This document shows positions 12,296 to 14,517 of a stretch of 44,202 nt of DNA, piece by piece (position 1 is the first letter of the stretch; each line of letters starts with the position of its first letter). The stretch covers positions 985-45,186 of the forward strand of contig PFFW01000148.1 in NCBI GenBank assembly GCA_002781745.1, in the 5' to 3' direction. The notes beneath the pieces are model-generated. The model saw only the letters and a program-made list of their open reading frames with translations. It was not told the origin of the DNA and did not search any database. Origin of the DNA: Rhodospirillales bacterium CG15_BIG_FIL_POST_REV_8_21_14_020_66_15 (GTDB taxonomy: Bacteria > Pseudomonadota > Alphaproteobacteria > Rhodospirillales > Casp-alpha2). Both the position numbers and the translations under genes were made by a program.

Positions 12296-12334
12296 GAAAG
12301 AAAAAGAAAGGGCCGGCCGCCTATTGGCTGGCCC
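12296..12334 (-). terminator. Intrinsic terminator of the S24 regulator gene
   Basis: On the minus strand a 9-bp stem (arms 12326-12334 and 12310-12318, one G-U pair, 7-nt loop) is followed by a T-rich tract (TTTCTTTTTCTTTC, complement of 12296-12309). The stop codon of the regulator lies in the loop. Read from the + strand the same hairpin could also help to end ubiD transcripts, but there it lacks a T-run after the stem. Confidence 0.75.
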
Positions 12335-12953
12335 AGACGATGCGGGAGATCCATTCGACCTGGGAAAGCTCGAGCGAGCGGTCCTCGTGGACCGGGTTGA
12401 GGGACTGCAGGTCGATGTGCCGCGCCGTGCGGCGGATCAGCACCTTGGCCATGACCTCGCCCTCGGTGGTCTTGACCACGACCCGGTCGCCGCGGCGCAC
12501 CGAGGCATGGGGGGCGACGATGATGGTGTCGCCGTCGCGGAACACGGGCTCCATGCTGTCGCCGTTGATTTCCAGGGCGAAGGCGTTGGGGTCGTTCAGG
12601 CCGGGGAAGGGGATTTCGTCCCAGCTGCCGCCCACGGGATAGCCGGCGTCGTCGAAGAAGCCCGAATTGCCCGCCTGGGCGAAACCGATCAGCGGAATGT
12701 TGCGGTAGACGCCGCCGCCCTCCGTCTCGTCCACGTAGGACACCCATTCCGACAGACTGGCCCCCGTGGCCTGCAGGATCTTGGCGATGCTCTCCGTCGA
12801 CGGCCAGCGCAGCTTGCCGTCGCGGGTCGTCCGCTTGCTCTTGTTGAAGGTGGTGGGGTCGAGCCCGGCCTTGCGGGCGAGGCCCGAGGTCGACAGGCCG
12901 TGCTCGCGCGCCAGCCGGTCCACCGCATGCCATACGCTAGAATGCCGTAACAT
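12321..12953 (-). CDS. S24 family transcriptional regulator (LexA/CI-like, HTH + self-cleaving domain)
   Basis: 210 residues. The N-terminal third is a helix-turn-helix domain ('LAREHGLSTSGLARKAGLDPTTFNKSKR'). The C-terminal part from about residue 85 is a peptidase S24 domain: Ser133 in INGDSMEP and Lys170 in EVMAKVL are spaced by 37 residues, exactly as in LexA (Ser119/Lys156), and Ala94-Gly95 in 'FAQAGNSG' is a candidate cleavage site. Known relatives repress phage or SOS-type genes and cut themselves when RecA is activated. The gene has its own terminator and is divergent from a three-gene operon with an SOS box, so it probably controls that operon, itself, or both. It is not LexA itself, as the HTH and linker differ. 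Confidence 0.85.
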   Translation of the reverse strand: MLRHSSVWHAVDRLAREHGLSTSGLARKAGLDPTTFNKSKRTTRDGKLRWPSTESIAKILQATGASLSEWVSYVDETEGGGVYRNIPLIGFAQAGNSGFFDDAGYPVGGSWDEIPFPGLNDPNAFALEINGDSMEPVFRDGDTIIVAPHASVRRGDRVVVKTTEGEVMAKVLIRRTARHIDLQSLNPVHEDRSLELSQVEWISRIVWASQ

Positions 12954-12962
12954 GGGAACATT
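12951..12962 (-). promoter_or_regulatory. Candidate operator AATGTTCCCATG over the S24 regulator start
   Basis: Read on the minus strand this is AATGTTCCCATG, including the start codon of the regulator. The + strand copy at 13141-13152, AATGTTCCAATG, differs in one base of twelve and sits just before the divergent operon; an 8-base partial match (CATGGGAA) lies at 13102-13109 inside the promoter. Each gene therefore carries the same element at its 5' end. A short palindrome TTGT-AAG-ACAA lies next to this copy. Binding by the S24 regulator is inference. Confidence 0.45.
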
Positions 12963-13097
12963 GTCTTACAATCTGGCGAAAATTTCCATAGCGAATCGAC
13001 CGGGGCGGCCATGCGCCGCGGTACGGGCGGAACCGCAGGGACGGGCCGGATATCCCGATTGAAAGGACAGATATAGGATTTATAGCCTAAAAAATAA

Positions 13098-13130
13098 TTG
13101 ACATGGGAATTTCAAGGCGCGTATCTGTAT
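13098..13130 (+). promoter_or_regulatory. Probable promoter of the SOS-box operon
   Basis: A perfect -35 hexamer TTGACA (13098-13103) is followed after 18 bases by TATCTG (13122-13127), a poor -10. The region is much more AT-rich than its surroundings. A LexA box begins 6 bases after the -10, which would place it over the transcription start, a normal position for repression. Confidence 0.5.
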
Positions 13131-13132
13131 TT

Positions 13133-13147
13133 GTTCTCTAAATGTTC
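13133..13147 (+). promoter_or_regulatory. LexA (SOS) box, GTTC-N7-GTTC
   Basis: GTTC (13133-13136), seven bases TCTAAAT, GTTC (13144-13147). This is exactly the direct-repeat LexA operator known in Alphaproteobacteria, which differs from the enterobacterial CTG-N10-CAG. It lies just downstream of a TTGACA promoter and 34 bases before the GTG start of the three-gene operon. The motif has eight fixed bases, so chance occurrence in a window of this size is quite possible, but the promoter position makes this one credible. Confidence 0.7.
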
Positions 13148-13180
13148 CAATGTGTCCGGCGACAAGGAGCGCGCCTTCCC

Positions 13181-13543
13181 GTGAAACGCAAACGCTACAT
13201 CCCGCGGCCCCTTCCCGGCGGCGCGGCCCGGCCCTTCGAGACGGCCGAGGAAGCCTGGTTCTGGTTCATCCGCGCCCATAAGGCGCGTCGCGACGGCCGA
13301 CGGTTCGAGGCCGGGGGCGGCATGGTCCGCCCCTGCGAGGCCGACGACGTGTACCTGGCGGCATTGACGCTGGTGCGGGCCGGGGTGCTGCGGCTGCTGC
13401 ATTTGCGCACGCTGCTGGACTTCGGCGTCCGGGAACGCGCGCCCGATGCCCGCGTCGGCGACGAAGCCCAGGCGGCCCGCCTGTGGGACGAGGCCCTCGA
13501 CCGCATGGCGACCGTCCTGCGCAGGAAAGGCATCCTGGCGTGA
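13181..13543 (+). CDS. Unknown protein, first gene of the SOS-box operon
   Basis: 120 residues from GTG 13181, with AAGGAG at 13164-13169; an upstream in-frame ATG at 13142 would lie inside the SOS box and is rejected. The protein is basic at its N-terminus (MKRKRYIPRPLPGG) and then mostly helical ('TAEEAWFWFIRAHKARRDGRRF', 'RPCEADDVYLAALTLVRAGVLRLLHLRTLLDFGVRERAPD', 'EAQAARLWDEALDRMATVLRRKGILA'). From memory, proteins with the pattern 'AWFW...RPCEPDDV...LWREAL..L...L..KGI' occur near phage-like genes in Rhodospirillales, but no function is known to me. The size and charge would suit a small DNA-binding or regulatory protein; that is a guess. Its TGA overlaps the GTG of the next gene. Confidence 0.75.
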   Translation: MKRKRYIPRPLPGGAARPFETAEEAWFWFIRAHKARRDGRRFEAGGGMVRPCEADDVYLAALTLVRAGVLRLLHLRTLLDFGVRERAPDARVGDEAQAARLWDEALDRMATVLRRKGILA

Positions 13544-13944
13544 CCGGCGAGGCGGCGCCCGTGGCCGGGCCGGACCTGGCCGTGGTGGCCTTTACCGGCC
13601 GGGCCACCTTGCCCTGGCTGCGGGTGCTGCGGCCCGGGTTCCGCCATTGTTTCGTGCTGCTGCGCACGCGCGGGCAGTGGCTTTATTACGACCCCATGGC
13701 GCATTACACCTTGGCATCGGTCATCGGGGCCTATCCGCTGCTGGGCCTCCTGCGGGTGTTCCGCGGCCAGGGCTGCCGCGTGCGCCTGGCGCGTCCCCGC
13801 GTGCCGCCGCCGCGGGCGCTCGCCTGGCGGCCCTATACCTGCGTCGAGGCGGCGAAGCGCGTGCTCGGCCTGCGGGAGCCCTGGGTGTTTACTCCCTGGC
13901 AGCTCTACCGCCGGTTGGGCAGGCGGCGGCCGGGTGGTGTATGA
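13540..13944 (+). CDS. Unknown small protein, possible permuted papain-like hydrolase
   Basis: 134 residues from GTG 13540 (GTGA overlap with the preceding stop; AGGAAAGG ten bases upstream). No signal peptide. His36 in 'GFRHCFVLLRTRGQWLYYDP' and Cys101 in 'YTCVEAAKRVLGL' stand in the His-before-Cys order of the circularly permuted NlpC/P60 (YiiX/LRAT-like) thiol enzymes, and Asp51 could be the third polar residue. The 'FVLL..RGQWLYYDP' strand pair fits that fold. Such enzymes cleave peptide or acyl bonds. The assignment is from motif order only; a structural protein with the same fold is equally possible. The gene is translationally coupled to its neighbour, hence part of the same operon. 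Confidence 0.7.
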   Translation: MTGEAAPVAGPDLAVVAFTGRATLPWLRVLRPGFRHCFVLLRTRGQWLYYDPMAHYTLASVIGAYPLLGLLRVFRGQGCRVRLARPRVPPPRALAWRPYTCVEAAKRVLGLREPWVFTPWQLYRRLGRRRPGGV

Positions 13945-13992
13945 TGGGGACGATGGAGAGCCCCGGCCGGCACCGGAGCGAAAAAGCCCGTC

Positions 13993-14517
13993 ATGGCCCT
14001 TGTCACGGAACCGGAAAACGATGACGCCCGCGCCGTGCGCGCCGCCGCGGCGATCCTGAACCTGAGCGAATACGACCTTTTCCAACTCGCCTTCGAACGC
14101 TGGTGGGGCCGCCCGCCCCGGAACGGCGAACTGGAGCCCGCCTTCGTCGCCTTCCTGTTCGACCAGGGCACGCCCCACTGGGCCCGCCATTTCGCGCGCC
14201 GGGTGCTCGACGAGGCCGAGGCCGGCACCCTCGACCGCGCGGCCTTGGGGGCCGGGCGCTTCAAGCGGGTCGTGCCGTTGCCGACGCGGGCCCGCCCGCC
14301 GCTGTCCGTGACCCTGCTGTTGCTGGCGGTCTATGTGCTGGGGGCCGCGGCAATTCATTACAGAATCGAATTGAAATCGCAGGCCTGCGATGTCCTGGCG
14401 CGCGGCGGCTGGCCCGCCCTCATCGCCGCCGCCCTGGTCGAGGGCGAGGGGGCGCTGTGCGGAAAGGGACGGACGGAGGTCAGCCCGCCGGCGCCGCCAG
14501 CAGGCGGCCCGCGATGA
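13993..14517 (+). CDS. Unknown protein with one membrane segment, third gene of the SOS-box operon
   Basis: 174 residues from ATG 13993, 48 bp after the second gene. The N-terminal domain (about 8-90) is helical and hydrophilic ('AAAILNLSEYDLFQLAFERWWGR', 'LFDQGTPHWARHFARRVLDEAEAG') and is followed by a basic stretch and one hydrophobic segment at about 102-122 (LSVTLLLLAVYVLGAAAIHY). The tail ends in Pro/Gly-rich sequence. The topology suggests a small cytoplasmic domain with a membrane tether near the middle. It overlaps the 3' end of ubiA, on the other strand, by 38 bp. No family is recognised; small membrane proteins of SOS or phage operons often stop division or permeabilise the membrane, but nothing here shows that. 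Confidence 0.7.
   Translation: MALVTEPENDDARAVRAAAAILNLSEYDLFQLAFERWWGRPPRNGELEPAFVAFLFDQGTPHWARHFARRVLDEAEAGTLDRAALGAGRFKRVVPLPTRARPPLSVTLLLLAVYVLGAAAIHYRIELKSQACDVLARGGWPALIAAALVEGEGALCGKGRTEVSPPAPPAGGPR

Follow-up and report, generated by a model that had tools for sequence, protein, structure and literature searches.

An SOS-box operon and its divergent S24 gene as the predicted switch of a podovirus-type, gene-transfer-agent-like element in Rhodospirillales

Introduction

What does a DNA-damage-type promoter situated between ubiD and ubiA control in an alphaproteobacterium? The question is raised by a window of 44,202 nucleotides, the whole stretch of DNA analysed here (contig PFFW01000148.1, positions 985 to 45,186), from Rhodospirillales bacterium CG15_BIG_FIL_POST_REV_8_21_14_020_66_15. 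In this window two coupled genes, A and B, follow a LexA (SOS) box and are divergent to a gene for an S24-family regulator (S24). An original prediction made from the sequence had described a three-gene SOS operon, either a domesticated prophage control module or a damage-triggered response. We propose, with a probability of roughly 0.6, that S24-A-B serves to switch on a domesticated particle of podovirus type, similar to a gene transfer agent (GTA). In this genus the structural genes lie at another locus.

The S24-A-B module and its promoter

Among loci found around B, the midpoint of the S24 gene lies within 1.5 kb of the B start, divergent to it, in 51 of 60, and A is present in 56 of 60. 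S24 was also found at 93 of 100 loci taken from named genomes or from across the class. A and B are coupled through a GTGA overlap between the A stop and the B start. The most likely start of A is GTG 13181, with AAGGAG at 13164-13169; ATG 13142 is inside the LexA box, and similarity in many named relatives starts at the residue of 13181.

The LexA box announced by the original prediction, GTTCTCTAAATGTTC, has the exact form GTTC-N7-GTTC, and begins 35 bp past the start of the TTGACA hexamer, likewise confirmed. The second hexamer, TATCTG, is weak, and the A-B promoter was not listed by a consensus promoter scan. The SOS-box form is that of the genome itself: the same motif precedes the matched parts of lexA and recA by 164-179 bp, on the strand opposite to the gene, and occurs 136 times genome-wide compared to 51 for a reversed control. 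A chance box was rejected on the gaps between S24 and A of relatives, 23 of 49 of which carry an exact box (shuffle mean 0.185, maximum 2), although the window alone is not significant (2 boxes versus 1.27 expected; 37 of 100 shuffles reach 2). This count covers 49 of 51 gaps, L063 and L089 having none to measure; the relatives in the gap sets are related to one another and five are from the window's genus. The positional conservation of the box lends support to a damage-triggered unit.

A second element is conserved upstream of the same promoter. In 37 of 44 gaps AGGAA occurs within the 35 bp that precede TTGAC (mononucleotide shuffles: mean 2.6, maximum 9). The distance from TTGAC to the S24 start is 46-60 bp in most other loci and 112-174 bp in the window's genus; nine near-duplicates and the gaps without TTGAC were dropped from this spacing test. 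The window has AGGAT, not AGGAA, within the dyad TAGGATTTATAGCCTA, and a further GGGAA at 13105-13109. As described for the Caulobacter repressor RogA, its sites also contain GGAA. Six RogA-type patterns were tried on 49 gaps, L070 being dropped as well and the window added, and four of them were above every shuffle. AGG-N8-CCT was present in 18 of 49 gaps (shuffle mean 1.1, maximum 7), GGNT-N4-ANCC showed no excess (4 gaps, shuffle maximum 5), and the full RogA site GGAA-N4-TTCC was found in none of the 49. The AGGAA element is taken as a putative S24 binding site.

Table 1. Features of the S24-A-B locus (window coordinates) and of the structural genes and their surroundings at the separate locus.
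Feature	Coordinates	Strand	Basis
S24 repressor gene, divergent to A-B	12321..12953	-	Helix-turn-helix + Peptidase_S24 (PF00717, 3.8e-24)
Dyad TAGGATTTATAGCCTA, presumed S24 operator	13074..13089		AGGAA / AGG-N8-CCT conservation in relatives
A-B promoter, TTGACA 13098-13103, 18 bp, TATCTG 13122-13127 (weak)	13098..13127	+	Sequence
LexA (SOS) box GTTCTCTAAATGTTC	13133..13147	+	Exact form also in 23 of 49 S24-A gaps of relatives
Gene A, predicted Q21-like antiterminator, 120 aa	13181..13543	+	Fold ranking and W-x-W...RP-C-DD signature
Gene B, predicted permuted-papain cysteine hydrolase, 134 aa	13540..13944	+	Invariant His36 and Cys101; start overlaps A stop
Gene C, small protein beside ubiA, outside the unit	13993..14517	+	Occurrence in loci, ubiA adjacency
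Capsid	C48:6292-7107		Found by similarity
Terminase (TerL)	C48:13095-14618		phrog_38
Portal	C48		phrog_332
Tail genes	C48		phrog_394, phrog_376
Fibre	C48		phrog_1640
Holin, endolysin	C48		Similarity to G010
LexA-type box with AT-rich spacer (L344)	C48:41506-41520		Motif
GC-rich block around CCGGACAACCCAGGG	L325:7261-7275		Found in five genomes of the genus
Helix-turn-helix protein gene	L325:8242-8703	-	PF01381, 1.5e-8
ODP/metallo-beta-lactamase gene	L325:9426-11285	+	PF19583, 1.1e-63

Linkage to podovirus-type virion genes

The notion of a domesticated prophage control module gains support from the surroundings of A and B in relatives. Portal or capsid genes are present in the fetched stretch at 79 of the 100 loci from named or class-wide genomes, many of these stretches being short. 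The genes after S24-A-B at locus L091 are a small gene, portal, a scaffold-like gene (named by its place), capsid (family phrog_3437) and tail genes; in the host genomes G161 and G010 the element extends further, to fibre, terminase and endolysin genes, G010 having a holin as well. The linked order reads S24|A-B-portal-capsid-tail-terminase-endolysin. Among the names in record titles are Magnetospirillum, Thalassospira, Telmatospirillum, Defluviicoccus, Terasakiella, Haematospirillum, Micavibrio and a Rickettsiales metagenome-assembled genome. Isolates that combine the linked arrangement with an exact LexA box include Terasakiella pusilla DSM 6293 (L248), Telmatospirillum sp. J64-1 (L237) and Magnetospirillum aberrantis SpK (L253).

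The virion cluster is assigned to the podovirus type from the PHROG families of its portal and its tubular tail proteins, from a match to T7 terminase that stays below the Pfam threshold, and from the nearest capsids. Among the matches listed, the closest named phage capsids are those of Pelagibacter phages EXVC031P Hodr (46% identity) and HTVC010P (30%), both of which we take to be podoviruses. The records of these phages measure 34-35 kb and, unlike the element described here, no phage record holds A or B: single-sequence searches with the two proteins gave no match among 50,697 phage records. No HK97-type capsid was found in this genome. A 5 kb unannotated 'Bacteriophage sp.' record from human fecal samples (MT838907.1) encodes a capsid 58.5% identical to the capsid here.

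The virion genes are plainly of phage origin, and they might belong to a decaying defective prophage or to temperate podoviruses acquired repeatedly, in which case S24-A-B would be an immunity region and not a domesticated switch. The IMG/VR collection is consistent with this alternative, since 193 of 213 stretches encode a B relative by profile match (41 match the A profile). Of the 80 retained B contigs, 20 are 17-20 kb long, as counted by eye, and B often lies about 1.2 kb from an end. The failure of A and B to match phage records argues against such a prophage. So does a scan of proteins at six loci (L091, L099, G000, G010, G095 and G161, covering part of the open reading frames), in which neither an integrase nor a replication protein was found.

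Separation of the switch from the structural genes

Terminase, portal, holin, endolysin and scaffold-like queries gave no match in the window, in which no integrase search was made. The earlier statement that no terminase is present thus holds for the window and not for the genome. The capsid search returned a single match in this genome, on contig C48, which also carries the terminase (Table 1). Chromosomal phage-derived genes for head, tail, packaging and lysis, one of the marks of a GTA, are all found on C48, where the scaffold-like gene is cut by the contig end.

The separation extends to relatives. In three members of the genus, B and capsid are 91, 57 and 66 kb apart on the same contig; the distance is 25-36 kb in G027, G046 and G058 (a capsid fragment in the last) and 0.2-1.5 Mb in G158, G140 and G102. 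Among the 106 genomes with both B and capsid, the two lie within 20 kb in 74, farther apart on one contig in 9 and on different contigs in 23, the last figure having little meaning in draft genomes. With the structural genes at another locus in this genus, A would therefore have to act in trans. No LexA box lies in the initial 41 kb of C48, the part that carries the structural genes, as activation in trans would predict.

Outside the window's genus, 15 of 95 loci have ubiD on the upstream side of S24. ubiD is therefore read as an old neighbour, and the structural genes as having left the site in the window's genus. The proposed insertion of the unit between ubiD and ubiA is better read in reverse, and a recent insertion was rejected. 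The same ubiD neighbourhood outside the genus also speaks against repeatedly acquired prophages.

Several further features were observed around the structural genes. Gene order is the same in G000 (this genome) and G095. No motif common to the separate structural operons was found. The GC-rich block around CCGGACAACCCAGGG lies upstream of the capsid gene in five genomes of the genus and at no other of 353 loci, and is a possible late promoter or leader. In G000 and G095 the PF19583 gene lies between terminase and capsid, and G103 and G111 carry homologs in the corresponding stretch. The helix-turn-helix protein gene lies beside the structural genes; its Aca2-like match is below the cut-off. 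The single LexA-type box of C48, outside the structural genes, is at the start of a 152-aa frame that presumably corresponds to the repair gene mmcB.

Co-occurrence and selection

Across 199 genomes of the order, B was found in 123, the capsid in 113 and S24 in 138. B and capsid occur together in 106 genomes, B only in 17, capsid only in 7 and neither in 69 (Fisher p 9e-29, a value overstated because the genomes are related). Of the capsid-bearing genomes, 104 of 113 have a single capsid match. Identity to this genome rises together for capsid and S24 (rho 0.74, n=97, after two capsid matches of at most 25% identity were dropped).

Ratios of non-synonymous to synonymous substitution (dN/dS) relative to this genome are low for the virion genes: 0.06-0.10 for capsid, 0.08-0.11 for portal, 0.06-0.08 and 0.09-0.11 for tail A and tail B, and 0.11-0.14 for terminase. 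Values for the switch are 0.11-0.21 (A), 0.15-0.24 (B) and 0.03-0.09 (S24), and for the host neighbours 0.08-0.11 (ubiD) and 0.15-0.19 (ubiA). The dS of element genes is of the same order as that of ubiD and ubiA. The aligned stretches are without internal stop for S24, A and B in five relatives, for capsid, portal and tail in four and for terminase in three; the one stop in the gene labelled TTA is its own end, and the G111 terminase match is cut by the fetched stretch. The low dN/dS values show purifying selection; together with the dS values, the capsid-S24 correlation and the gene order shared by G000 and G095, they support an element that its host has kept and inherited vertically.

Other observations weigh against a domesticated switch-and-particle system. 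The exact LexA box is missing from 26 of the 49 gaps. S24 occurs without B in 28 of the 199 genomes, where the repressor either has persisted after loss of the element or acts on a different target; B occurs without S24 in 13 and without capsid in 17, including G119 of the same genus. Capsid and B identities are weakly correlated (rho 0.36, n=106). Decayed copies exist: stops interrupt both capsid and B in G153, B in G219 and in G350, and S24 in G191. One linked copy (L342) is interrupted. In the window's genus the structural genes are reordered and interrupted by other genes, and no small terminase was identified. In L342, from G140, the linked copy meets ParA-like and transposase-like frames (by eye) past the scaffold-like gene, and the capsid is 1.4 Mb away.

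The decayed and interrupted copies and the weak B-capsid correlation are what a defective or repeatedly acquired prophage would also give. The dN/dS of 0.06-0.14 for capsid, terminase, portal and tail genes and the one capsid match per genome in most carriers fit it poorly, and we regard a prophage that is not domesticated as unlikely. A domesticated element kept by the host remains our preferred reading.

Gene A and the phage 21 antiterminator

Even at E up to 10, no known family in Pfam, PHROGs, NCBIfam or PADLOC matches A or B of the window, and the A and B relatives gave chance-level rows in Pfam (best E 0.01). The structural model of A, which is of fair quality (predicted local distance difference test score, pLDDT, 83.7), was compared with known folds. 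VIA-align placed four chains of Q21, the late antiterminator encoded by phage 21, at the top (Z 7.2, 6.1, 6.0 and 6.0), the next row being at 3.0; these Z values are below the tool's safe level and may reflect a common arrangement of small helical proteins. Because of this warning ten Q proteins, phage 21's included, were aligned (eleven Q genes were fetched, and L358, an unannotated record, was left out). W-G-x-W is present in 10 of 10 Q proteins, with RPxCxDD exact in 7 of 10; the A alignment, which holds 52 of 56 relatives plus the window, shows W-x-W, and all but one of its 53 members carry RPCxxDD. A joint pattern, W-W...RP-C-DD, occurs in 143 of 14,374 frames; by blastp, 136 of these are matches to A and 7 to Q. 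The pattern was composed with both families already in view.

A resembles phage 21 Q (PF06530; PDB 6p18 and others) in its signature and may share its fold, by the model. It differs in being shorter and in the spacing of its tryptophans, and direct comparisons did not join the two. The hhalign comparison of A with the ten Q proteins is not significant (Prob 0.1), its short alignment falling on the RP-C-DD motif; B and S24 compared with Q in the same way were equally empty. PF06530 was unlisted for all 53 A members in Pfam at E up to 1, and a PDB profile search from A gave nothing reaching Q. Foldseek found no PDB match for A or B at E 0.001 or better (Q21 for A at E 3.2), and none for A among viral models at that level, with no Q named among the 50 matches listed.

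These failures, together with the caution about Z values near 7, could mean that A-B switches the structural genes without Q-type antitermination, with A acting as a promoter activator, as GafY does with sigma-70, or as an adaptor. The gap of at least 3 Z units between the four Q21 rows and the next row, and the restriction of the post hoc signature to A and Q frames, make such an activator or adaptor a doubtful, though not negligible, alternative. On fold and signature we consider it probable that A works like Q, without counting it as a member of PF06530.

Gene B

His36 and Cys101 of B are invariant in 48 sequences (47 of 59 relatives plus the window). In the model of B (pLDDT 89.3), H36 opens a strand and C101 opens a helix. 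Its best structural match is the type VI effector TseH (Z 7.4); 3kw0, a Bacillus cysteine peptidase, follows at Z 5.6, both below the tool's safe level. B is predicted to be a permuted-papain cysteine hydrolase. EspG and other weak rows were also returned by Foldseek for B.

The invariant pair and the TseH row would suit a lytic or toxic hydrolase in a free-standing damage response, comparable to the AlpR-AlpBCDE death pathway of Pseudomonas, the link to virion genes being historical; the 17 genomes with B and no capsid point the same way. Such a response is nevertheless very unlikely in our view: the element has its own holin and endolysin, B and capsid are still associated where they are unlinked, and the fold and signature of A point to a regulator. 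In a GTA-like element, B would be a cysteine hydrolase made together with A.

The S24 repressor

As originally predicted, the divergent S24 gene encodes an Ala-Gly site (AG94-95), S133 and K170, all intact. These residues are kept in 28 of 29 rows of the S24 alignment (28 of 51 relatives plus the window) and in 28 of 29 class-wide loci. S24 and Caulobacter RogA both combine a helix-turn-helix with an S24 domain in 210 and 213 residues respectively, a likeness by description. S24 is predicted to be a RogA-like repressor. It may sense DNA damage too, because it keeps the cleavage residues that Caulobacter RogA reportedly lacks (PMC9632790), and it would probably cleave itself when RecA is active. 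S24 proteins without cleavage residues, as reported for Caulobacter RogA, were observed at L037 and L050.

Proposed mechanism

In the undamaged cell, A-B would be held off by LexA, at the box near the transcription start, and by S24, at AGGA-type sites around -35. One promoter would thus be under two repressors, LexA reporting DNA damage. Upon activation of RecA, LexA would be cleaved, and probably S24 as well, allowing A and B to be made. A would then load on RNA polymerase at late promoters and cause read-through of portal, capsid, tail, terminase, holin and endolysin genes. This action on late genes would be in cis in most relatives, where these genes follow A-B, and in trans in the window's genus, on C48 in this genome. 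Particles would form, and we infer that they would carry host DNA.

Gene C and the ends of the unit

The original prediction had counted three coupled genes. Coupling holds for A and B; gene C starts 48 bp after the end of B, is present in 2 of 60 other B loci and is tail-to-tail with ubiA in each of the three genomes that yielded it among the loci compared (the window, L071 and L032). A three-gene operon was rejected: C goes with ubiA and is no part of the S24-A-B unit. The linkage to S24 expected in other genomes is accordingly seen for A and B and not for C. Searches with C gave chance-level rows only in Pfam, PHROGs, NCBIfam and PADLOC. The terminator proposed at the end of the unit after S24 is weak, none being found there in a terminator scan (fold z -1.42). 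Overall, the earlier observations on this locus are partly confirmed and their interpretation partly supported.

Relation to known systems and significance

The closest parallel is the RogA-GafY-GafZ system of Caulobacter, in which RogA is reported to repress the GTA activators gafYZ (PMC9632790) and GafZ is an antiterminator (PMC11150451). By description, a LexA-like helix-turn-helix-S24 repressor controls there, as proposed here, a two-gene operon that activates a domesticated phage cluster elsewhere on the chromosome. The virion genes here, however, are podovirus-type and not RcGTA type, S24 has the cleavage residues that are reportedly absent from RogA (PMC9632790), and a LexA box is present here. 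In the Pseudomonas AlpR-AlpA system, a damage-triggered self-cleaving repressor is described as freeing an antiterminator that turns on lytic genes (PMC7969949). The logic from repressor to antiterminator is the one proposed here, with other parts: in the available text AlpA has no homology to lambda Q, and its targets are the lysis operon and a second operon, not such a virion cluster (PMC7969949). The Faecalibacterium element FpGTA was called the first GTA-like element of podovirus-like morphology (PMC12946183, excerpts). Compared by description, it is like the present element in being GTA-like, of probable podovirus-like form and split over two loci, and unlike it in having a Gram-positive host.

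In a published table (PMC6821227, seen in part), RcGTA-like clusters are apparently zero in Rhodospirillales, Azospirillales and several related orders. No report of a podovirus-type GTA in these orders, or of a GTA under LexA and antitermination, was found in open-licence PMC titles and abstract openings, and no mention of the element was found in the available part of a Magnetospirillum prophage study (PMC7860042). We give an even chance to the broader proposal that the element represents a second, independent alphaproteobacterial GTA lineage. It would be podovirus-type, spread across the window's order and beyond, in groups where RcGTA is reported absent. DNA damage would feed directly into it through LexA and a RogA-like repressor that control a Q-like antiterminator, and in several genera switch and particle genes would have separated although both were retained.

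If DNA-carrying particles are made, groups reported to be without RcGTA would possess their own GTA, whose virion would be unrelated and tied directly to the SOS response. A likely role would also be assigned to two protein families, A and B, whose members in the window have no match in the four family databases named above. It could then be asked whether hosts have repeatedly brought phages that are not related to each other under one type of repressor, and why DNA damage should trigger the sharing of DNA.

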